Both the position numbers and the translations under genes were made by a program. The notes under the pieces are model-generated. The model was not told the DNA's origin. It saw nothing but the letters and a program-made list of their open reading frames with translations, and ran no database searches. A stretch of 25,723 nucleotides of DNA from IMG/VR virus record IMGVR_UViG_3300035137_000091, positions 1-25,723 of that record; one strand, 5' to 3'. Each line of letters starts with the position of its first letter. Within the stretch, counting starts at the first letter, position 1. Below, piece by piece: positions 392-25,723 of the stretch. Origin of the DNA: a virus.

Positions 392-1858
392 CTATGGATC
401 CTGCACTACAATGCGAGTCTCATCAAACTCGGCATATTCATTTCCGGCAACTGTAATATTGGTCTCAGAGTAAGATGGAGGATCTCCCGGACTGGCAGTC
501 GCATCCAGCTCCACAGTAATATCCCCAATCCCAGGCACTGTGTAGATCGGAGTATTCAATCTTTGTCTTATCACGTCATCTCCAATCTGCAAATTTTCTT
601 CTGCCCATTCAACAATTGCTTCCTTAATCAGGTCATCCCCATCCACGGGGTACGTCTCTTCTGTATTATAGGCCCTGGTGATCCTGGCCCATGCATACAG
701 CGGAGTCGGACGGCTGAATTTCACTGTTTGGGTATTCCCACCAGCGTCCGTAACATTCACTGTCTCTGTCCCATGGGATTCTATTCCGGCAGGCATATTA
801 TCCCAAATGACTTGTCCGATATCAGCATTTTCACCACCAGACACCACCGCTTCAAAGCTTTTCGGCGGCCTGCCATCTCCATCGGTGAGCATTGTACGAT
901 TACTTTCAACTGACACGGAAATAACTCCATCCACTTCTTTCAATGCATTTTCAATCCCGTCTTCAGTTGAGGTCTTTGTCTCTAGGTTCTGCTCCCTCCG
1001 GAGCCGAAGGCTCTCATCACTTTCGGCACCTCTTCCAGTATCTCCGGCAGTAGGATTATTTACATCATCCCAGCCGGACACGGAAGTAACAATTTCAGTC
1101 AGGCTATTGGCCGGAGCAGGAATGGCTCCGGTTTCATCACAGGCAAAAGATCCCCCTGAGCCCAGAAGGTCTATGGTCCAATTAGCACTTTCAACTACAT
1201 TATAGTTGAGGATCCCCCCGAACAGCCGGAGCTGAGTTGTTCCGACTTTGGAAGGCTCCATATCCTGAGTAGGATCCGCTTCAATCAGGGCAATAATAGC
1301 ATCCACCACCGCCTCTTCATCATCAGCCCCTCCCCCATCAGTCACATAGGAATAAGGAGTGCCGTCTATAGTGATGGTGAATGTCTCTGAGGATCCGGGG
1401 GGATCCGGGGTCAGGTAGATATCAATACATTCTGCCTGAAGAATATATTGGGAGGTCTGAAGTGAAAACAGTACAGGATTATTCGGATCATCTTCAAAAC
1501 TCTCATCCCTTTTGATCTGCTTTCCTGCGGAAATCAGAGTTCCTTCGGTGCCGTACAGCACCACCCCTTCCACCTGGGTTGCCGCAGGAGACAGGCGGTC
1601 CGTTCCAGTTTCTCGGGAAATAAAATCCAAAGACTGCCCCGTGGAATTATCCGGATCCCGGCTCTTCCACACTTCTTCCAGGGCATCCCACTGATTGGCT
1701 TCCCTCTGGGAAAGGATCCCCACAATCTGCCCAAATGGGCTTTCAGCATCTAGGTCAATGTCATTGCCAAAAGATGCCTTGAAAATAGTTTCTATTTCAA
1801 TCTTGATTTCCGGAAGGGTCTTTTTCTGTAGCCCTTCCGTTGTCACATAAGTACCCAT
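392..1858 (-). CDS. Baseplate wedge protein, gpJ-like (Baseplate_J family)
   Basis: 488 residues. The N-terminus (ESPFGQIVGILSQREANQWDALEEVW) and the central run VTSVSGWDDVNNPTAGDTGR, followed by a charged SDESLRLRREQ helix, are typical of P2 gpJ/Mu gp47-type wedge proteins, which link hub to fibres and drive baseplate opening. The C-terminal region (YPVDGDDLIKEAIVEWAEE, then PIYTVPGIGDITVELDA) also fits the family. Residues ~146-235 form an extra beta-rich module (FTITIDGTPYSYVT) inside the family fold. The ATG at 1858 lies 12 nt after a GGAGG. It directly follows the gp25-like gene, the usual order. I am confident of the family; the boundaries of the extra module are approximate. Confidence 0.9.
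   Translation of the reverse strand: MGTYVTTEGLQKKTLPEIKIEIETIFKASFGNDIDLDAESPFGQIVGILSQREANQWDALEEVWKSRDPDNSTGQSLDFISRETGTDRLSPAATQVEGVVLYGTEGTLISAGKQIKRDESFEDDPNNPVLFSLQTSQYILQAECIDIYLTPDPPGSSETFTITIDGTPYSYVTDGGGADDEEAVVDAIIALIEADPTQDMEPSKVGTTQLRLFGGILNYNVVESANWTIDLLGSGGSFACDETGAIPAPANSLTEIVTSVSGWDDVNNPTAGDTGRGAESDESLRLRREQNLETKTSTEDGIENALKEVDGVISVSVESNRTMLTDGDGRPPKSFEAVVSGGENADIGQVIWDNMPAGIESHGTETVNVTDAGGNTQTVKFSRPTPLYAWARITRAYNTEETYPVDGDDLIKEAIVEWAEENLQIGDDVIRQRLNTPIYTVPGIGDITVELDATASPGDPPSYSETNITVAGNEYAEFDETRIVVQDP
1154..1423 (-). other. Extra beta-rich module inside gpJ
   Basis: Residues ~146-235 of the gpJ-like protein. It shows TFTITIDGTPYSYVT, an acidic helix (EEAVVDAIIALIEAD), then strands ending in ANWTIDLLG. 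The strand-helix-strand pattern resembles the insert shared by the sheath and cement proteins (IVFTINGTA, TMAALETEIE, TRTLDIS), but I see no DNA-level identity, so common origin is an inference. Confidence 0.5.
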
Positions 1859-7635: not shown

Positions 7636-9009
7636 TTACAGCGTCAGCGTGCCGTTGATTTCAACTTTGTGAATTGCCCCGGAAAGAGTGGCCGTGAAGG
7701 TTACATCCGGCAATGTTCTGGCAGCTTTATCAACGGTTGAGATGTCCGCCGCATCCGGAGCGGTCACCACAATAGAGTCTACATCAATAATTTCCTGATC
7801 AGCCGCATCTACCAACACACCCCGAACCAGTCCAGTTATGACTTGAATCCCTCCATCATTAAGAGGGATTTTCCGAAGGTTCACCAGTTCACCAAAAATG
7901 GTTTCCTGCATGGTAGCCACAATCCAGTCAATCCCGCGAATCACGTCAATATATTCCCCAGAGGCAACAGTGCCATTGGAAGTGATGCTCACTCCGGCAA
8001 CAGGAGTATAGATATTTCCACTTTTGTCATATATGGCATTTTCCTGAGCTGAAGTCAGTACATAAGAAGGCACTCCAGTAAGAGTCTTAAACTTCCAAGT
8101 CTGGGATCCGGCATCATAAGGCAGGGCTTCTCCCGGCCATGCAGCATGAATATACTCTCCACTCTCCGCATCATCCGCATTTGTTGTGGGATCCAAATAG
8201 AAGACTCCAACGGACCGGTCATAATTCTGATCCTGCATGTAGGAAAAAATATCATCTGTCACTGCCGGGTTGTAGGCGTCTGTATCTGTACTGAAATAGA
8301 AAAAGATTTTCACCTGAGTTTCTGCCCAAGCTGCGGCTAACTTCTCATTGGCCTCAGAGACCAGTCCCTGAAAAGTGATGGTCTCATCAGGCTGCGAAGC
8401 CCCACCAGTAATAACCACAGAGCAACTCTGTACTCCGGTTCCGGGGATTGAAATGTCCAGGGTTCTAGTATTCGTGTCCCCAGCATCAATTGTGACCACA
8501 GCATCAGTAATGTCTGACTCAATTTCAGTCTCCAATGCTGCCATAGTTTCAGCCTGACCAGTAACAAAAGCCACAGGATCCACGGCAGTGCCGTTGATCG
8601 TGAAAACAATCGAATTACTGGCCACAAAATCAGCATCAAATACGACCTTGGCTGTCTGCTCACCTAAGATGATGAAAGCATACCATTCTCCGGAAGCAAT
8701 CTGAATTGCCGTAAGAGCAGCAGTCCAATCTGCATCTCCTGAATCTTTTCTTCCCACAAAAACTTCATCCACGGCCGGATTCTGAGAAAATACCGCCGCG
8801 GCGGCCAAATACACCGGATCCGTAGTTGCCCAACCATCTGCAACCATCTCAGTCAAGCTGGCATAAGTGCGATAACGGTCAAAAGTAGTTGAGGTCTTGT
8901 CTGTGTTGAACTCACTGATTATCCCGAAAGTGCCAAAATTAGCAGTCTGGATAGAGGCCGTCTGCCGGGATATCGTGACTTCAACAATTCCATCCAAAGG
9001 ATTACCCAT
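7636..9009 (-). CDS. Tail sheath protein (DUF3383 type) with inserted domain
   Basis: 457 residues. The start is the ATG at 9009, with AGGAGG seven bases upstream; a longer open frame upstream lacks a site and would overlap the terminator gene. Residues 1-117 (IVEVTISRQTASIQTANFGTFGI, later PAVDEVFVGR, SGEWYAFIIL) and 217-457 (EKLAAAWAETQVKIFFYFS, DVIRGIDWIVATMQETIF, FTATLSGAIHKVEINGTLTL) form the sheath fold. Residues ~119-216 are a foreign-looking module that interrupts it. Contracts around the tube at infection. The C-terminal strand would complete the inter-subunit mesh. Followed closely by the tube gene. Confidence 0.88.
   Translation of the reverse strand: MGNPLDGIVEVTISRQTASIQTANFGTFGIISEFNTDKTSTTFDRYRTYASLTEMVADGWATTDPVYLAAAAVFSQNPAVDEVFVGRKDSGDADWTAALTAIQIASGEWYAFIILGEQTAKVVFDADFVASNSIVFTINGTAVDPVAFVTGQAETMAALETEIESDITDAVVTIDAGDTNTRTLDISIPGTGVQSCSVVITGGASQPDETITFQGLVSEANEKLAAAWAETQVKIFFYFSTDTDAYNPAVTDDIFSYMQDQNYDRSVGVFYLDPTTNADDAESGEYIHAAWPGEALPYDAGSQTWKFKTLTGVPSYVLTSAQENAIYDKSGNIYTPVAGVSITSNGTVASGEYIDVIRGIDWIVATMQETIFGELVNLRKIPLNDGGIQVITGLVRGVLVDAADQEIIDVDSIVVTAPDAADISTVDKAARTLPDVTFTATLSGAIHKVEINGTLTL
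8362..8655 (-). other. Inserted domain in tail sheath, shared with cement protein
   Basis: Residues ~119-216 of the sheath. Landmarks are VVFDADFVASN, VFTINGTA, TMAALETEIES, DTNTRTLDIS and GGASQPDETITF. The cement protein carries the same landmarks in the same order (IVFDADFEASN, DTDNRTLLI, GGSGQPDGTITY). DNA at 8615-8645 matches 12793-12823 at 29 of 31 bases. The flanks GEWYAFIIL and AAAWAETQVK read as one sheath segment split by the module. Confidence 0.8.
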
Positions 9010-9010
9010 A

Positions 9011-9607
9011 TTATTCTCCTCCTGTCTCGAATGTATAATCCCAGTCCACGGTATCAATCCAACTAAGTCTCTCAGTAGCTTTGACCGCAAACCCGAATTG
9101 AATATCCAACATTTCAATCAGGTCCCATTCCCCTCCCCTTTCCTCTGGGGATGCGGAAATACCCAATTCTGTAAGGAAAGCAACCTGGTTAGTGGCCCCA
9201 AGCTGCTGAATCTCTTCCTTTTCTATGCTCATAAGCAGTTCCTGAAGGAACCGGCCATCTCCCCCATTGGGGACTCCAGTAGATTCATTCCGACTGCCTA
9301 TTTCTTTCAGTGTTATTGTAGCCTGGAAGTCCTGGACCATTTCCTGTACTCCATTTTCTCCTGGGGCTATCGGATCCCCCTCTTCATCAATAGGAATCCC
9401 TGAATCATTGACCTTGATCCCACCTTTTGTTGCCCGACCAATTGGATGAAACCCAAAAGGATTCGATATAGTCAAATACGGTGGATCAGGGCGGGGTGCG
9501 CTTTGGTACTCCTCAATTATTTTTAGGTCCCTTGCTGGTGTAGCCTCCGTATTAATCACCTTATTTATCCAACTATATACAAAATCCATCAATTCGGTAG
9601 GAGTCAT
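9011..9607 (-). CDS. Tail terminator (neck gp12-like / LIC_12616 type)
   Basis: 198 residues. It begins with a helix (TELMDFVYSWINKVI), a proline-rich segment around RPDPPYLTIS, then MVQDFQATITLKEIGS and a long helix (DGRFLQELLMSIEKEEIQQL). It ends in AVKATERLSWIDTVDWDYTFE, the strand pattern of terminator proteins capping the tube and sheath. Located immediately before the sheath, as expected. Overlaps the head-closure gene by ATGA at 9604-9607. Family assignment comes from pattern and position; the sequence itself is divergent. Confidence 0.68.
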   Translation of the reverse strand: MTPTELMDFVYSWINKVINTEATPARDLKIIEEYQSAPRPDPPYLTISNPFGFHPIGRATKGGIKVNDSGIPIDEEGDPIAPGENGVQEMVQDFQATITLKEIGSRNESTGVPNGGDGRFLQELLMSIEKEEIQQLGATNQVAFLTELGISASPEERGGEWDLIEMLDIQFGFAVKATERLSWIDTVDWDYTFETGGE

Positions 9608-9963
9608 GCTGGTACAGGCCCCCTATATTCCACAACATATTCATAATGGGGGATAATATTATTTTGCCAAGACCTCAATGCTATTACTTCCCACCGATCC
9701 TCTAGCCAATAGATCATATCCCCTTTGTTTTCTGTTCCCTGTTCAGCCACTTTTAATTCCGTGTCGGTAAACAATTTCATTTTGCCCAGATTGTCTTCGC
9801 CCACATTAAGATTTTGGGCCTCAAATCCACTGAGGGGCTGAACTGATCCCTCAATAAACACATCTCCGCTTGGAGAGGCAACCCACAATCGGCCTACATA
9901 GGCCCCAGTTTTGTTCTCACCAGAAATATTACTGTGAAATTCAGCAAACTCTTCATATCCCAT
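9604..9963 (-). CDS. Putative head closure (head-tail joining) protein
   Basis: 119 residues. A beta-rich protein: VGRLWVASPSGDVFIEGSVQPLS, GKMKLFTDTEL, KGDMIYWLEDRWEVIALRSW, then PHYEYVVEYRGP. The WLEDRWEVI... W...HYEYVVEY end resembles the small barrel of head-closure proteins. Its place between the gp10-like neck protein and the tail terminator fits that role, closing the connector and receiving the tail. Start ATG at 9963 overlaps the previous TGA by one base. The call is mostly from position and strand pattern, so a general neck role is safer than a specific one. Confidence 0.55.
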   Translation of the reverse strand: MGYEEFAEFHSNISGENKTGAYVGRLWVASPSGDVFIEGSVQPLSGFEAQNLNVGEDNLGKMKLFTDTELKVAEQGTENKGDMIYWLEDRWEVIALRSWQNNIIPHYEYVVEYRGPVPA

Positions 9964-10421
9964 CAGACTTCATCCTTGTGGGTGACAGAGTTTCTCATGA
10001 TGGCTGTATCAATCAGAGGTTTGGAACTTCCCTTCATCAAAATGGTCCTGGGTTTCAACGGGAGGAATGTTCCAAATGAAATAGACCGCTTGATATAATA
10101 CACCATCTTTTCTCCTGTCAATGCAATCAACCTTGCTGGGGACAATCTCCCATCCAACATGGTTCCATACTGACTGTCAATAAAATCATAAAACTTCCTT
10201 TGATTCGCATCAAAAGCATTTCGGGTGAAGGGTCTTTGGGGAATGTTCCGCCGGGGGGATCCCAATTCATGAACAGCCCCTCTGGCTGCCACGTCCGTCT
10301 CCGGGGATCCCCCATGACCAAAAAGGCCCACCTCAGTAACAGCCCCGTTGAGCTTCAACAGATCTTTTTTGATCTGTTCCCACCCCAAATCTTTCTCAAT
10401 GACCTCACTGTGTACAGGCAA
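9963..10421 (-). CDS. Neck/tail completion protein (HK97 gp10-like)
   Basis: 152 residues. It has EVGLFGHGG, RGAVHELGSPRRNIPQRPFTR, a helix, and PLKPRTILMKGSSKPLIDTA followed by MRNSVTH. The 'HELG...IPQRPF' and 'KPLIDTA-M-NSV' signatures define the gp10/virion morphogenesis family that acts at the head-tail joint. No ATG lies near the front; the start is TTG at 10421, six bases after AGGAGG. Overlaps the end of the DUF4054 gene by 17 nt. Confidence 0.78.
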   Translation of the reverse strand: MPVHSEVIEKDLGWEQIKKDLLKLNGAVTEVGLFGHGGSPETDVAARGAVHELGSPRRNIPQRPFTRNAFDANQRKFYDFIDSQYGTMLDGRLSPARLIALTGEKMVYYIKRSISFGTFLPLKPRTILMKGSSKPLIDTAIMRNSVTHKDEV

Positions 10422-10761
10422 CTCCGCCTCCTGTCAATCCTACTGCCGGAATATTCCCATTGATCAATCCTTCCAGCTGCCGACCATAGTGGGTCTGGCC
10501 CAAATCTGCATCACCGCCCTGGGCTTGGGAATAGCTGATGGCCAGTCCTCCTTCCCTCTTGCTAGAAGCAGCCCCGGGGGAACCTGACCGGCGGTCCCTG
10601 AGGGTCATCATATGTGCCGCCCTCAGAGCAACCGCCAGATCATAATTGACTCCAAAGAAACATGAGGACGTACGGCCGGCCGCCAAGCTCAGAAAGGTTG
10701 TCTTTCCAGCATCAGAGGCGAACTGAGGAGCAATAGCATCCAAAACTGTACTAGCACTCAT
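10405..10761 (-). CDS. Head-tail connector protein (DUF4054 type)
   Basis: 118 residues. Signatures VLDAIAPQFASDAGKTTFLSL, FFGVNYDLAVALRAAHMMTL, SSKREGGLAISYS and GQTHYGRQLEGLI fit the DUF4054 family, an adaptor that sits under the portal (gp6-like connector role). Start ATG at 10761 overlaps the upstream TAA (TAATG). The family is clear; the connector role is from family context and synteny with the neck genes that follow. Confidence 0.85.
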   Translation of the reverse strand: MSASTVLDAIAPQFASDAGKTTFLSLAAGRTSSCFFGVNYDLAVALRAAHMMTLRDRRSGSPGAASSKREGGLAISYSQAQGGDADLGQTHYGRQLEGLINGNIPAVGLTGGGVACTQ

Positions 10762-11258
10762 TATTCCATTTCCACCTTGGGTGAAGCAACCTGAGTGGCC
10801 TTATTTGTTTTGCTTTCCTCTTCTTTGGTTTTGGCCTTCTCCGTCTGGGCGCCCATCTTTTTGTATTCCTTCTCCAGCTCATTCTCACGGGCGCGGAGAA
10901 TAGTCCGGGATTCGTCACCCTTGGCCTGTTCCAGCATTTTCCTTAATGAGTCCAGGTCATATGTCTCCCGGGCCAAACGTTTCACCTGGGCCGGATCCAT
11001 CAGATCAATAGTGGCCGAAATCTTTTTCCCATCCTTCTCCACGGTATAGGCTTCAATCTGACCACTTCTGATCTTACCTTCCAAAATGCCTTCAATGTCC
11101 TGATAGAACTGGTCCGGGACATAGTTCACTCCGGGCTTAAGGATAACCTTACCAACCTTCCGGCCAGCAACTTTCTGTCCCTTTTTGTTGGTGACTCCAC
11201 TAGCTTTCTTCATCCGCGGAACGATCAGGATCCGATTTTCTTTCCATTCCAAAAACAT
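10761..11258 (-). CDS. Unrecognised charged protein after major capsid gene
   Basis: 165 residues, not recognised. The N-terminal third is compact (LEWKENRILIVPRMKKASG, VILKPGVNYVPDQFYQDIEG). It then becomes a long helical, highly charged region (QVKRLARETYDLDSLRKMLE, RARENELEKEYKKMGAQTEKA) with Lys/Glu/Thr low complexity and a valine/proline end. It starts at ATG 11258 behind GAGGAGG and lies between capsid and connector genes, a slot that often holds small head proteins. A head-assembly or fibrous accessory role is possible, but nothing in the sequence shows it. Confidence 0.7.
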   Translation of the reverse strand: MFLEWKENRILIVPRMKKASGVTNKKGQKVAGRKVGKVILKPGVNYVPDQFYQDIEGILEGKIRSGQIEAYTVEKDGKKISATIDLMDPAQVKRLARETYDLDSLRKMLEQAKGDESRTILRARENELEKEYKKMGAQTEKAKTKEEESKTNKATQVASPKVEME

Positions 11259-11288
11259 TTCCTTTCCTCCTCTTCCTTTTGTCTTGGA

Positions 11289-12224
11289 TTAGATACCATC
11301 TGCGTAAGACACAGACAGTGGATAGTATACAATCACGCCGCCGGAGCGGGAGTGAATAGGCACAACAAACTCCATGTTGTGCTGCTGGGGAGCAAATTGC
11401 TCAATGGTCTGGGGTACTTCATAAGTCAGGTTCATGGGATCTTTTTTATACACCATCATCCGATCATTGGAATCATCAGCAGATCCGGCATCAGCCAGCT
11501 CAACCAGCCAGTCAATTGTCTTGATGTGGGGGTTGTTCTCCAAGAAGTATTTCATAATGGTTCTTTCAGTGTCCCCAGTCATACGGGTATTCGCAATCAA
11601 TTCATACTGATCGATAGGCAGCAGCATGGTATCCGGAACTTCCCGACCATTGGTGGAGTCTATAATGCCCGTTACAATGCCGCTCATATCCGCAATAATC
11701 TCATCGGGAGTTTTGCTGGCCCAGTCAGTGGTCCCCGCGTCTCCATCAGGCAAGGTGTACTCAGTAATACCGGGATAGTCGATGAAGCCCTGAAGTCCAA
11801 AACTATCATCGCCATTCCACGCAATATCATTGTGTTTTTCTTCCTGCGCCCTTCGGGCAGCGTCAGCCCTTCTCTGATCCAGGTTCTTGCCAGCCATCTG
11901 GCTTTCCCGGATTTCCTGAATGGAATATCCAAAACTGTTACCGATAGACCGCACCTTCTGAGTCACTTCTTCCCCGTACACATCCGCACGCGGAAAGTCA
12001 TTGGCATAATCAGCCACGATCTTCGCAAAGCCAATTTTGGTATATCTCTGGTAAGTGATCTCCCTGGCTCCGGAATTGGCTTCAGTGGATACCGGAATGA
12101 GTGCAGCATACTTCAGGTCTTTGTACTTAGTGTCATAAGACCGGGCCTTGATGTACTTCAACTCCCTGTCAAAAAAAGCAGACTCATTAGCATCCAGCCG
12201 GAAAGGGTCATTGTGTTTCTTCAT
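11289..12224 (-). CDS. Major capsid protein (DUF2184 type)
   Basis: 311 residues. The N-terminal arm (FFDRELKYIKARSYDTKYKD) leads to AALIPVSTEANSGAREITYQ and YGEEVTQKVRSIGNSFGYSI, then a long helix (RRADAARRAQEEKHNDIAWN) and GLQGFIDYPGI. The HK97-fold axial part includes PDTMLLPIDQYELIANTRM and the end SRSGGVIVYYPLSVSYADGI. This is the DUF2184 capsid pattern. ATG at 12224 follows GAGGAGG. Flanked by the cement protein gene upstream, consistent with a head operon. No N-terminal scaffold (delta) domain is visible; the scaffold is supplied by the protease fusion gene. Confidence 0.9.
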   Translation of the reverse strand: MKKHNDPFRLDANESAFFDRELKYIKARSYDTKYKDLKYAALIPVSTEANSGAREITYQRYTKIGFAKIVADYANDFPRADVYGEEVTQKVRSIGNSFGYSIQEIRESQMAGKNLDQRRADAARRAQEEKHNDIAWNGDDSFGLQGFIDYPGITEYTLPDGDAGTTDWASKTPDEIIADMSGIVTGIIDSTNGREVPDTMLLPIDQYELIANTRMTGDTERTIMKYFLENNPHIKTIDWLVELADAGSADDSNDRMMVYKKDPMNLTYEVPQTIEQFAPQQHNMEFVVPIHSRSGGVIVYYPLSVSYADGI

Positions 12225-12239
12225 TTCTTTCCTCCTCTT

Positions 12240-12995
12240 TTAAGCAAAAGCAATTTCGCCATAGGTCATAGGGGCCTGGCCCTGAACCCGGAGCTCTGCA
12301 TTGCCTGCGGTAGCCACATCTTCTGTATAGTACCCTGTAAGTTCCTCACCGGAAGTGCTGAACTTACCAAGGTTGGCTCCCTCAGTAGTAACTACATAGG
12401 GAGTTCCATTGACACTTACAGCTGCAGCCGTCTCTCCCCTGATCCATCCGTCCACCATAACATTGACCGCGTCCTCTGCATCATACGCAGCAGAACTGTC
12501 ATAAGGCATTTTTTGAGTGAACAGAGATACGCCCAGGAATATCTGTCCTGAACCATAAGTGATAGTTCCGTCCGGCTGTCCGGACCCACCTACAACGGCC
12601 TCAGTCACAGCTGCAGTCTCACCCTTCACACGAATGAGCAGGGTCCGATTATCCGTATCTGTAGAGTCCAGAGCAGCTTCCACCCCCTCCAAAGCCTGTA
12701 CTGCAGCCAATAACAGGTCCATAGTATTATCATGGCTAGAAGCGTAAGTAACATCATCTGCAGCAACGGTATTCACCGTAATGGTGATGACGTTACTGGC
12801 CTCAAAATCAGCATCAAAAACGATTTTGCCCACATCGTTCTTGTACCCCCAACATTTGCCGTCCTCACCAATATAGCCAAAGACAGGCAGGCCAAAGGCA
12901 ATCTCTTCCTGAGCAACTTTGCTCTCTACCCGGGAATAACTCCCAGATTTCATACCGGGGATCCCCCGGTCCATGTCTCCATAAGCTGCCATCAT
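12240..12995 (-). CDS. Capsid cement/decoration protein (Gp24-like) with inserted domain
   Basis: 251 residues, long for this family; removing the insert leaves about 156. The flanks, residues 1-55 (GSYSRVESKVAQEEIAFGLPV, FGYIGEDGKCWG) and 151-251 (IFLGVSLFTQ, DAVNVMVDGWIRGE, AELRVQGQAPM), fit Gp24-type cement proteins that stabilise capsid hexamers from outside. The interrupting module (~57-150) is shared with the sheath. Two adjacent ATGs are possible: 12995 (ATGA overlap with the scaffold stop) or 12992, which has a better spacing from AAGGAGAG. Confidence 0.82.
   Translation of the reverse strand: MMAAYGDMDRGIPGMKSGSYSRVESKVAQEEIAFGLPVFGYIGEDGKCWGYKNDVGKIVFDADFEASNVITITVNTVAADDVTYASSHDNTMDLLLAAVQALEGVEAALDSTDTDNRTLLIRVKGETAAVTEAVVGGSGQPDGTITYGSGQIFLGVSLFTQKMPYDSSAAYDAEDAVNVMVDGWIRGETAAAVSVNGTPYVVTTEGANLGKFSTSGEELTGYYTEDVATAGNAELRVQGQAPMTYGEIAFA
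12546..12827 (-). other. Inserted domain in cement protein, shared with tail sheath
   Basis: Residues ~57-150 of the cement protein. Landmarks: IVFDADFEASN, VITITVN, TMDLLLAAVQ, DTDNRTLLIRVKG and GGSGQPDGTITY. The order and spacing match the sheath insert, with roughly a third of residues identical and a nearly identical N-terminal block at DNA level (12793-12823). The predicted split is between GYKNDV and IFLGVSLF, which would otherwise join as ordinary cement-protein sequence. Confidence 0.8.
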
Positions 12996-13558: not shown

Positions 13559-14380
13559 ATGGTCCTCCATATTATTTATTTCACCAACGCAGAAAGCGTC
13601 AGCAGAATCCATTCTCATGCGGGCAGCATCTCCCGCCCGGGCCCGATCAACGGCAGCAACATGGTTGTACCGGATCCGCCTCTGTATCCCATCATAGGGG
13701 ATCCCACACCAAACCCCAGGGGTGGGATCGTACACCATAGAATAACCGGCAGACAATTCCTGACGACCATCCATGATATCCTGAATTGTGTCCGGATCCG
13801 TCCAGGTCAAATCATTGGCCAGGTTGTATCCATCACTCAATTTTTTCCCGTTCATGTATTCAGGATTCTTGGGCATCATGTCTTCCCAATTGGCCGGGTA
13901 TGAGGGATTGTCCCCAGTCATTCCCTTCCCGTACTTGGCAATGTTCTCTGCGGTCACTCTTTCAGGGGGGTGCATATTGGTCAGAGGGATCCCCTTCAGT
14001 GAAGCAATGGAATCAGGGTGGAATACCTCAGAGGGGTGCCGCAATTCCCGGCAGACAGAGCCGTCTTTGTTCTGGTACAGGAAAACCCCCACACAGGTGA
14101 TAACCGCCCTGCCTTTCAGATAGCCGTCATCAGTAAGATCAAACCGGGAGGTCATCCAATCAGGAGCCTCTATGCGGTCAAACCGGGTTTCCTCAGGGAG
14201 CCCCTTCAGATCCGCTGAAAAAGAAGGGGTCAACTCATCGGTCCGCTCCGGTCCGGACCCGGGGTTGGTTTCATCAGCAGAATCCTTCTTCTTTTTCTTG
14301 GTTCCGCATTTGTCCTCTTCTTCAAGTTCCTGATCTTCTTCCTCCGGGATCTCTCCGGCAACTCTCTTTTCTTCTTTCAC
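12992..14380 (-). CDS. Prohead protease (DUF2213 type) fused to scaffold
   Basis: 462 residues. A charged leader (~1-60) precedes the protease domain at ~80-258: DDGYLKGRAVITCVGVFLYQ, RELRHPSEV, PLTNMHPPE (H137), QELSAGYS (S210), YNHVAAVDRARAGDAARMRM (H240). H137 and S210 are candidate catalytic residues. From ~275 the sequence is a long coiled coil (STLEAERDDFKAKLEKAEKD and following), typical of a scaffold. The protease would cut scaffold and capsid arms during maturation. Starts with GTG at 14380 (GTGA overlap with the LamG gene) behind AGGAGG. Confidence 0.88.
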   Translation of the reverse strand: MKEEKRVAGEIPEEEDQELEEEDKCGTKKKKKDSADETNPGSGPERTDELTPSFSADLKGLPEETRFDRIEAPDWMTSRFDLTDDGYLKGRAVITCVGVFLYQNKDGSVCRELRHPSEVFHPDSIASLKGIPLTNMHPPERVTAENIAKYGKGMTGDNPSYPANWEDMMPKNPEYMNGKKLSDGYNLANDLTWTDPDTIQDIMDGRQELSAGYSMVYDPTPGVWCGIPYDGIQRRIRYNHVAAVDRARAGDAARMRMDSADAFCVGEINNMEDHMKTTRIDGVDYQAEAKVIETMDKAQKDLKAKTDEFNVYKEDTVKQISTLEAERDDFKAKLEKAEKDLKEAKDAADDQERIDAAVKARLDLLRVAEKAGVEVQDSMSDLDIKKAVIGKSNPDLNLDEKDETYINVRFDIAREDLEKTDAAADQNIQTVLDSKKPDPELNLDAKRDEYEKELSGRWKGEK

Positions 14381-16176
14381 TCATTTCCTCCTGGTAAGAT
14401 ACAATCATTGAAGGACTGATAATCAGTATTCTCAACTAAGAATTTTCTTGTTCTCAGTGGAAACCTAGCTTCATAATATGATCCAGATTCCATATCATCT
14501 GTTGGGATCAAAGGTTGTTCCCAATATCCATTTGCTCTGGGGGTAACAATTGTTTTTGGAATATTACGTACCAGATTTACCGTAGGATATTTCACCGCAT
14601 CATGATATAACACAATATCAAAAGGTTCTGTCGATGGAGTTCCGTCAATATTTCTGGCCCATCCATACACAACAGTTATGGGAGGAGCATCTTCGGTCCC
14701 TACAAAATCATACTCCAATGTCAAACTCTCAAATGCTGGGGTGGAGTTTCCATCATCCGAATACAGATATACTTTTGTAGTCATAACTACCGGAAAACCT
14801 TCAATTGTGAAAGATGCTTTGGCCGCTTCAGCTTCAGCTATTGTGTTAGATTGAGGATACCCACTAGACACAACCCAATCTGATGTGTCAAAATAATAAT
14901 CAACCGTTCCTTTTGAAAAGGTAAGTTCTACATCATCTGAGCCAGTTTGTTCCACAACACCGGAAATATTTTCCAATCCTTCATGCAAGATTGTTTCAGA
15001 AAAAATAATTACCGGGTTGTCTGTCGGATATCCTATATCCACATTCATGTTAGCAGTAAGTTCATCAACAATACATTGAATATTTGTATCCGGAAATATA
15101 ATCATGAATTGTCCATATTCTTCCCCATCAACAGAGAGACTTCCACAATTTGAATTAAAGGTTGTTACGTCATTTGCTTGATCATATGTTTCATCTGAGA
15201 CAACCCAAGCTGATCCAGACCAATATAAATAATCTCCGGATCTTCCTATCTGAATAACATATCTCGGAGATCCTGACTCTATGATTGAAAAAGAATTGAA
15301 AAGCTTAATTGTTCCAACTCCAGTATGTTCCATTTCTGGCAAGATTATAGATGACCCTAAATAAATTGTATTATAAACATCCGACCAATCCGGAGTATAA
15401 TTTGATGTATGTTGGACAGTATCAAAAATTAAAACACTATCAATGTAACTGTCCATTCCAGAACTGGCACCAATCCTGAAAAGATTATTTTCCGTTCTTG
15501 TACCTGTATTTGAATCTGAATCTTGTAATTGCCCATCAATAAAAATACGGGCAATCCCAGCAGTAGCATTAAAATTAAGTTCTACTTCGTAATATTTTAT
15601 TGTAGAAGGTGTCCATACAAAACTCATATTAAAAAGTAGAACTCCTGAAGAATTATATACATAACATTGGAAAAAATTAACATTATGACGTAAATGAATT
15701 CTGTCTACTGTACTTATATTTGATTGAAAAATCTCTTGAATAGCAGGAGCATTGCCTGTATAATTTGGTTTCCACCTAATTCTGATACATCCTTCCTGAA
15801 TCATTGATACCAAATTATCGGTATTGTATTCAACGTTAGCATCCCCGCCTGTAAGATCAAGTTCGCCACCAGAAACAGAAGCATTTCCATTTAATGTTCC
15901 ATTGAGAGTACCTTCTCCCCAATTTAGATTTTCATCCAAATTAAAAGAGGCATAGGCAATAGCATTCGCAGGACGTTTATCTATTTGTTGAACTTGCCCG
16001 CCTGGGAATTCTGCCAAATTAGAATCATAGGTAAACCCTGTATCATCAGCAAAATCCTCAGTAAAATCAATATCATCCTGCTGGAGTTTAAGTTGGAATT
16101 TATCCCCAACAATTTCAATCTTATCTGTGTTATAAACTGCCGTATCTAAAATTGTATACGTTTTAGGAATCCCCAA
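14377..16176 (-). CDS. LamG-fold (concanavalin-like) structural protein
   Basis: 599 residues. Residues ~75-275 have the laminin-G-like jelly-roll pattern: GGELDLTGGDANVEYNTD, SMIQEGCIRIRWKPN, TIKYYEVELNFNATAGIARI, FIDGQLQDSDSN and SGMDSYIDSVLIFDT. The rest is several further beta domains (FMIIFPDTNIQCIVD; TTKVYLYSDDGNS; a final GWARNIDGTPSTEPF barrel). Such proteins can decorate virions or bind glycans. Its place between minor head protein and protease suggests a head-associated accessory. Start is TTG at 16176, six bases after GGAGG. The DNA is visibly more AT-rich than its neighbours and has no GGATCC, so it looks acquired. Confidence 0.75.
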   Translation of the reverse strand: MGIPKTYTILDTAVYNTDKIEIVGDKFQLKLQQDDIDFTEDFADDTGFTYDSNLAEFPGGQVQQIDKRPANAIAYASFNLDENLNWGEGTLNGTLNGNASVSGGELDLTGGDANVEYNTDNLVSMIQEGCIRIRWKPNYTGNAPAIQEIFQSNISTVDRIHLRHNVNFFQCYVYNSSGVLLFNMSFVWTPSTIKYYEVELNFNATAGIARIFIDGQLQDSDSNTGTRTENNLFRIGASSGMDSYIDSVLIFDTVQHTSNYTPDWSDVYNTIYLGSSIILPEMEHTGVGTIKLFNSFSIIESGSPRYVIQIGRSGDYLYWSGSAWVVSDETYDQANDVTTFNSNCGSLSVDGEEYGQFMIIFPDTNIQCIVDELTANMNVDIGYPTDNPVIIFSETILHEGLENISGVVEQTGSDDVELTFSKGTVDYYFDTSDWVVSSGYPQSNTIAEAEAAKASFTIEGFPVVMTTKVYLYSDDGNSTPAFESLTLEYDFVGTEDAPPITVVYGWARNIDGTPSTEPFDIVLYHDAVKYPTVNLVRNIPKTIVTPRANGYWEQPLIPTDDMESGSYYEARFPLRTRKFLVENTDYQSFNDCILPGGNE

Positions 16177-24146: not shown

Positions 24147-25040
24147 TTATCCAACTCCCAACTCCTTTTTCATTCTCACTGCTTCTGAGAAGGACATATC
24201 AGCAGGATCCCCGGAGGAAAGGTTGATCATCTCAACTTCCTTTTTGAGAGAAGCTAATTTCAATGCAATCTTCCGTGCCTTCTTTTGGGCAGCAGGTTCC
24301 GGGTCAAATAACAGGAAGATCCTATCAAATACCGCCATCTCCTTCACTTGCTGATCCGGAACAGAGGTGCCGAAAGTACACACAGCCCCATCCCCCAACC
24401 TCCACACATCAAAGACCCCCTCCACAACCAGGATCCCGGAACCTTCACAATTGTTAATATTGTAGAGAGCGTGCTTGTAATGGGACACTGATTCATCCAG
24501 TCGAGCTCCCTTGTATTTCACAGGGGAGTCAATCACTGTCCGGCCCTGATAGGAAATCAGCCGACCTGCTCTGTTATAGATGGGTATAATGATTCTGTAT
24601 TTATAATCCCCTGATACGGTTCCCCTAATGTGATATCTGTCTTCCAAATACCCCGGATCAAATCCTCTTTTCTTCAGGTATTTCTTGTGTATGGGTTTCA
24701 GATCACCCCCGGGGAGATCCACATGGGTTGCTGTTCCGAACCGAACCGAACCGGATCCAGAGGCCTGCGTTCCAGAGGAAATCCCCCAATAGGAGTTCAT
24801 CAACTCCTTGGCCTGAGGAACCCCGATGGACAGCAGCTGAGAGAGCACCCATGACATGGAAGCTCCTCCACAATTCCAACAACTGTAATATCCTTTGTCT
24901 AAATTGAAACCCCCATACCAGCCAGAGTGGCCGCAGAGGGGACAATGAACCCCAATCCAACCTGGGAAGACTTTGTTGCCGTCCGGTTGCTTGCAAGGGA
25001 TAGAATAATCATTTAACAATCTAACTATGTCAATTTTCAT
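24147..25040 (-). CDS. DNA primase (CHC2 zinc ribbon plus Toprim)
   Basis: 297 residues. The zinc ribbon is CPLCG (C33, C36) and CWNCGG (C54, C57). Toprim_N-like strands follow (YRIIIPIYNRAGRLISYQGR, ~149-167), then the Toprim core ILVVEGVFDVWRLG (E207, D211) and IFLLFDPEPAA (D246, E248). It would make RNA primers for phage DNA replication. No helicase domain or DnaG-type C-terminal helicase-binding domain is present; it is a minimal form. ATG at 25040 is within the end of the repeat gene (11-base overlap), with only a weak GGAA/GAAG upstream. Confidence 0.9.
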   Translation of the reverse strand: MKIDIVRLLNDYSIPCKQPDGNKVFPGWIGVHCPLCGHSGWYGGFNLDKGYYSCWNCGGASMSWVLSQLLSIGVPQAKELMNSYWGISSGTQASGSGSVRFGTATHVDLPGGDLKPIHKKYLKKRGFDPGYLEDRYHIRGTVSGDYKYRIIIPIYNRAGRLISYQGRTVIDSPVKYKGARLDESVSHYKHALYNINNCEGSGILVVEGVFDVWRLGDGAVCTFGTSVPDQQVKEMAVFDRIFLLFDPEPAAQKKARKIALKLASLKKEVEMINLSSGDPADMSFSEAVRMKKELGVG

Positions 25041-25723
25041 TATTTACTTCAATTCCAGTTATTCCTTCAAAAATCTTCTTATCAAATTCGGGAAGAGAAG
25101 CCAAATACTCAACAGCAACCTTCGGCATGTCTTTCCATGCTTCTTCTTTCTGTACTTCTTCAGCCTTCGGGATTGGAGTCTTTTTCCATTCTAATCCACT
25201 TTTTAGATATAAATATTTAAGATTATTAAATTCAGGATGCCATCCATTCAATCTCCTATACAATTTCAATTGGATTTCTTCCCACCGTTCTTTCTTCACT
25301 TTTTTGTTGAACAAATAATATTCATTCTTTTTGTTCAAGCAAAAAAGTCCTTTTGATATTCCAACAGAATTTAAAATTCCATAGGACGAATTGACTCCGT
25401 GGGAATCATTGACTCCGTCGGACCAGTTGACTCCGTGGGACAAGTTGACTCCGTCGGACCGGTTGACTCCGTCGGACCAGTTGACTCCGTCGGACCGGTT
25501 GACTCCGTCGGACCGGTTGACTCCGTCGGACCGGTTGACTCCGTCGGACCGGTTGACTCCGTCGGACCGGTTGACTCCGTCGGACCGGTTGACTCCGTGG
25601 GACAAGTTGACTCCGTCGGACAAGTTGACTCCGTCGGACAAGTTGACTCCGTCGGACGAATTGACTCCGTGGGACAAGTTGACTCCGTCGGACCGGTTGA
25701 CTCCGTCGGACGAATTGACTCCG
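25030..25723 (-). CDS. Hexapeptide-repeat protein (runs off right edge)
   Basis: Open to the right edge, so the true start is unseen; an apparent TTG start inside is only a repeat unit. At least 18 full hexapeptide units of the form (R/L/S/W/D)-S-(D/H)-G-V-N are followed by decayed ones ([14 protein letters not shown]). The unique C-terminal domain of ~110 residues ([40 protein letters not shown], then [20 protein letters not shown]) is charged and helical. The repeat could form a beta solenoid with Val inside. Upstream of the primase, overlapping its start. Function unknown. Confidence 0.8.
25391..25723. repeat. 18-bp tandem repeat, 18 complete units to the window edge
   Basis: Plus-strand unit TTGACTCCGTCGGACCGG in tandem without spacers. 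Units 6-11 are identical. Variation is nearly confined to one internal base (C/G, giving Asp or His) and the last three bases (giving Arg, Trp, Leu, Ser or Asp). The array continues past the right edge. Confidence 0.95.

Follow-up and report, generated by a model that had tools for sequence, protein, structure and literature searches.

The window (the whole stretch of DNA analyzed here, 25,723 nucleotides) is a piece of a contractile-tailed phage; an IMG/VR contig of 62,463 bases includes all of it at 99.98% identity. Of particular interest are two structural genes, both on the (-) strand: a tail sheath gene at 7636..9009 and a capsid cement gene at 12240..12995. The initial annotation had named both correctly: the sheath ORF matches DUF3383 (PF11863; E 2.4e-23) and PHROG 205 (E 3.4e-83), with the PF11863 and PHROG 205 match spanning sheath sequence on both flanks of the segment described below, and the cement ORF matches PF22758 (Phage_cement) with an E-value of 8e-13 and 49.2 bits, against a curated cut-off of 27. 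Translation of the sheath is likely to begin at the ATG at 9009 rather than at the TTG of the longest ORF; the ATG start reproduces the residue numbers used earlier.

Several other features of this phage deserve mention. A 599-aa protein (14377-16176, (-)) adjoins the capsid protease gene and weakly resembles a concanavalin-like lectin domain (Laminin_G_3; E 1e-4, under the curated cut-off); it is possibly another surface-binding protein. A tandem repeat with an 18-base unit occupies 25384-25723 and encodes SDGVNR-like six-residue repeats in the ORF at 25030-25677 (-); its DNA gives multiple self-matches at the end of the contig. Beyond the window, adjacent ORFs of the 62-kb contig (L017, 14847-17797) resemble pieces of an Mre11/SbcD nuclease and a Rad50 ATPase, a possible phage recombination system. 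The same phage also carries, outside the window, a type IV CRISPR-Cas effector set (L018, 7752-11692; about 47752-51692 of IMGVR_UViG_3300042731_008138), with matches to Csf1/Cas8 (E 5e-75), Cas11 (3e-54), Csf2/Cas7 (8e-100) and Csf3/Cas5 (3e-37); a CysH-like protein adjoins the set, and Cas11 and CysH together suggest type IV-B.

Comparison of the sheath and cement proteins by BLASTP gives a single strong match, in which 35 of 93 residues are identical (38%; 63.9 bits, E=4e-16): as first proposed, one domain is present in both. The sheath copy, supported by BLASTP, profile and predicted fold, lies at 8371-8649 (-) and comprises residues 121-213 (KVVFDADF...TITF); the cement copy, supported by BLASTP, profile and predicted elements, lies at 12555-12827 (-) and comprises residues 57-147 (KIVFDADF...TITY). 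These limits agree with those of the initial annotation (∼119-216 and ∼57-150), and each host protein has relatives that are free of the segment, which is therefore a genuine insertion in both, as that annotation claimed. Henceforth we refer to the segment as the module. At the 5′ end of the sheath copy the DNA at 8615..8645 (-), which encodes the hallmark VFDADFVASN, matches that at 12793..12823 (-) in the cement copy at 29 of 31 bases, exactly as reported before. A profile built from six sequences, both window copies among them, detects these two copies and no others in the 62,463-base contig; their E-values are 2e-37 and 4e-34, and that of the best remaining ORF is about 2.

The sheath module, predicted with AlphaFold2 from 74 aligned copies, has a pLDDT of 97.8 and the element order strand-strand-helix-strand-strand-strand-strand. 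The cement prediction gives the identical order at matching positions (the model of the whole cement protein is poor, with a pLDDT of 60, and was used for the module only). The module is thus predicted to be a compact folding unit, beta-rich with one helix. An Ig-like fold was considered and rejected because the predicted arrangement of two strands, a helix and four strands includes a helix. Foldseek searches of the PDB returned modest, consistent matches to the sheath chains of A-1(L), phiTE and Bas63, and also to T7-type nozzles, FliD and flagellin, with probabilities up to 1.00, query-normalised TM-scores up to 0.72 and no E-value below 0.001. Among predicted viral structures there was one strong match only, to a 773-aa protein (E 9.5e-6) equal in length to the sheath of Rhizobium phage RHph_I42. 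According to PMC12846349, the lateral sheath domain of phage Adele and its relatives has a fold that recurs in nozzles, auxiliary capsid proteins, FliD and flagellin. Virion proteins with this fold have therefore been described before; what is new, with respect to the open-licence PubMed Central text that was searched, is the module's sequence family and its behavior.

IMG/VR was searched with the module consensus, which returned 17 loci, and with sheaths, which returned 79, some of which overlap. With an iterated profile the number of distinct full-length copies rose above 70, and almost all of them come from uncultivated phages; they occur singly or in tandem, and their consensus is roughly [KT]IVFDADFVASNSI..TVNGTAV..VTFATDHDTTM..L...IE....V.A..D..D.DNRT..I.......V...VTGGASQP.GTI. 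(counts are non-independent, the contigs being partial and related). A Pfam and PHROG scan of 74 copies gave nothing convincing: all matches were weak and no family was common to more than three copies, the weak match to Flagellin_IN (PF07196) in three of the 74 having a best E-value of 0.016. Searches of cultured phages by tblastn with the cement protein or the module returned Rhizobium phage sheaths or nothing, so the family is known mainly from uncultivated phages. In bacterial genome contigs the scans yielded a single match: a cement protein from a metagenome-assembled bin. Contig L034 (1-2109) opens with a truncated module that continues directly into a portal-like ORF. The junction may be a genuine fusion, or repeated sequence may have led the assembly to join two pieces there; as a possible join the contig was excluded from the module tree.

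Presence and absence of the module in sheath and cement proteins were scored with module-free profiles. Stripped of their modules the sheaths align well, and the reference residues at which insertions occur are 75, 95, 128, about 157-166 and about 191-197 (numbering that counts a 36-residue upstream extension). Every site is in the N-terminal half: placement is constrained rather than free. The module is present in 41 of 70 placeable sheath ORFs and absent from the other 29. Most DUF3383 sheaths possess a lateral domain of ∼90 residues, and its common position, site 128, is found in three states: empty (22-26 residues), filled by the usual lateral domain (about 90 residues), or filled by the VFDADF module (about 20 contigs, the window not among them). 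The alignment of relatives proposed in the initial annotation turns up sheaths in which only 22-26 residues stand in place of a domain present elsewhere. The window sheath itself has just 23 residues at the usual lateral site, which is thus empty, and carries the module some 30 residues beyond it. Profile-profile comparison of the module with the usual lateral domain (hhalign) gives an E-value of 6e-4 at a probability of just 28%, and the PDB profile match to the sheath 9zdk_S falls at the usual lateral domain with an E-value of about 0.1; the two may share a deep common origin. A 631-aa sheath (L105, 2082-3974) combines, at one site, the module and two apparent tandem copies of the usual lateral domain.

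Of 41 cement-like proteins identified with the module-free cement profile, 30 contain the module, at two or more sites: mostly near residues 60-80 and sometimes near 120-134; one (in L028) carries two copies. The 11 without a detected module are mostly short (151-170 aa), which supplies module-free relatives on the cement side of the same alignment check; the cement of L111 may hold a more distant version. In the 44 contigs with both genes the module is in neither gene in seven, in the sheath only in seven, in the cement only in ten and in both in 20; its presence in the one is statistically independent of its presence in the other (Fisher p=0.33).

The module is also hosted by baseplate wedge (J-like) proteins, tail terminators and other capsid decoration proteins, by PHROG 939 (a protein of head or neck) and by a second family of sheaths, PHROG 23; in all it moves among five or more kinds of virion protein. 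A single contig, L087, has it in four kinds: cement, PHROG 939, sheath and baseplate wedge. In the cultured Rhizobium phage RHph_I42 the sheath (773 aa, Phage_sheath_1 family; L015, 11152-13479) contains two copies. The baseplate J protein of the window (392-1858, (-)) has extra sequence at residues about 147-260 (TFTITIDGTPYSYV...), with a pattern resembling that of the usual sheath lateral domain. The module profile finds no third copy there and hhalign to the module gives a probability of 4%; the extra sequence is a possible distant relative.

Copying between genes is seen in a relative of the window phage. In L046 a stretch of ∼78 bp in the sheath module is identical to the cement copy of the same contig. 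Its sister L045 is 96.5% identical to it; the two differ at 21 of the 78 tract positions and at 33 of the 1,266 positions in the rest of the sheath gene (Fisher p=8e-14), and at every one of the 21 the L046 sheath has the base of the L046 cement. The same tract is found in L047, which is 99.8% identical to L046 and comes from a different metagenome. The simplest reading of these alignments is gene conversion from cement to sheath. In L028 the three copies (two in cement, one in sheath) are each other's nearest. Across 20 related contigs, which are not independent, cement and sheath modules are on average more alike within a genome (43% identity) than between genomes (35%; permutation p=5e-5).

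The window phage itself is different. Its cement module is 70-73% identical to the cement modules of L024, L027 and L029 and its sheath module 57-65% identical to the sheath modules of L027 and L029, whereas the two window modules are about 37-38% identical to each other; cement-sheath similarity is not in excess (rank 6 of 20). The initial annotation took the 29/31 match as a sign that the copies were recently exchanged or kept alike by recombination. Since each window copy is nearer to the same gene in other phages, the match is no evidence of recent exchange; moreover it lies within the range of between-genome comparisons, 48 of 4,608 such pairs (some of them close relatives) reaching 29/31 or better. 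The idea of recombination keeping copies alike does hold for L046 and L047. On the module tree and these comparisons the copies in the window phage are old. That a sheath-cement exchange took place recently in this very phage is accordingly a reading to which we give very little weight: the identity at the 5′ ends of the modules and the demonstration of the process in L046 speak for it, but the tract is the conserved hallmark in commonly used codons and is no better than matches between genomes, such as the 36 of 38 bases shared by the window sheath copy and the L024 cement copy. A short, old conversion limited to about 30 bp may nonetheless have occurred.

Together the above analyses point to both segments being copies of one accessory virion domain that acts as an in-frame mobile module. 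We regard this as probable, a judgment that covers the mobile-domain reading as a whole and is separate from any assignment of function. The module is present or absent in both host families, lies at several positions in each and at times in tandem, and copies in one genome can overwrite one another; it would have spread by duplication and gene conversion. The window copies would both have been in place before the split from L027, L029 and similar relatives. The insertion sites appear to be loops on the outside of sheath and capsid that keep clear of the contacts made with the tube and within the lattice, and outward display of the module is plausible. From position, mobility and conservation we infer a surface role. 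The most likely use, by analogy with phage Ig-like domains and lateral sheath domains, is weak adhesion or shielding: the module would make weak multivalent contacts at the particle surface, adhering to cell envelope, polymer or particles, or would cover it, as proposed for phage Ig-like domains. Surface contact or shielding holds about half of our confidence as to function; structural reinforcement and near-neutral spread are each unlikely, and some other use is less likely again.

A rival to mobility takes the sheath segment to be the usual DUF3383 lateral domain, vertically inherited, and the cement copy to be a one-off transfer from the sheath. That most DUF3383 sheaths have a ∼90-residue lateral domain, onto which the 9zdk_S match falls (E about 0.1), that the profile-profile E-value is 6e-4 and that solved phage sheaths show what looks like the same fold are all as this explanation expects. 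We nevertheless consider it improbable: the profile-profile probability is only 28%, the usual site in the window is empty with the module about 30 residues beyond it, the module occupies at least five places in sheaths, and cement copies are too widespread (30/41) for a one-off. The possibility foreseen in the initial annotation, that the segment is an ordinary part of DUF3383 sheaths, thus holds in so far as most sheaths carry an extra domain and fails on its site and sequence, which are other than those of the module.

The remaining alternatives concern what the module does. It might clamp adjacent subunits and so stiffen sheath and capsid, binding nothing outside; capsids are indeed stabilised by cement proteins, and an extra sheath domain has been proposed, in the discussion of PMC9230969, to stabilise the sheath disc. 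We think this unlikely, for host lattices differ, positions vary within one host family in a way that makes contact with one neighbor improbable, and many relatives lack the module. A single bridging contact is likewise disfavored because a single sheath family offers several sites and the host proteins differ in geometry. Spread might instead be near neutral, the module being tolerated and copied by recombination with no benefit of its own. This accords with the independence of sheath and cement presence and with the conversion and tandem copies observed, but its standing is as low as that of reinforcement: pure neutrality is disfavored because the hallmark is conserved at the protein level, its residues persisting across very diverged copies as codons vary; each copy costs about 280 bp, and cement copies are still 70% identical between phages. 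A further suggestion is that the module serves as a virion-wide tag, one adhesive or shielding domain displayed on head, neck, sheath and baseplate and kept alike with the help of conversion. We hold this to be unlikely; were it true, the whole particle would show one matched surface to hosts or environment.

The module represents a promiscuous virion domain that forms a new sequence family, distinct from the Ig-like class, and one phage has been caught with its tail gene apparently converted by a capsid gene. In two structural proteins that are well understood, naturally empty and filled sites map positions in sheath and cement that tolerate a 90-residue insertion. Together these findings make it testable why phages carry extra sheath and capsid domains, and RHph_I42, with its two sheath modules, offers a laboratory system.

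Among known systems, comparable in behavior are phage Ig-like domains (Fraser et al. 2006, as cited in PMC9230969), which are likewise accessory on diverse phage proteins, horizontally exchanged, dispensable in many relatives and thought to make weak surface contacts. The module departs from them in its predicted fold, which has a helix and resembles FliD and flagellin domains, in being embedded at several sites within the cores of sheath and cement proteins, and in the gene conversion between head and tail. Flagellin_IN (PF07196) and the D2/D3 domains of FliD appear by Foldseek to have the same general fold, but show no significant sequence match and belong to flagella rather than virions. 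A survey of domain mosaicism in phage proteins (PMC10684548) describes ongoing shuffling of fragments between functional classes, as seems to apply to the module; it stresses tail fibres, spikes, endolysins and polymerases, and a search of its main text turned up neither sheath nor decoration proteins. Another close system is the lateral domain of type 2 sheaths (Adele, phiTE and Bas63), which appears similar in fold by Foldseek and, like the module, is extra to the conserved sheath core (PMC12846349 and PMC9230969); lateral sheath domains lie away from the tube, according to PMC9230969. The usual lateral domain, however, has one site and a distinct sequence, whereas the module has its own signature and occupies several sites and hosts.
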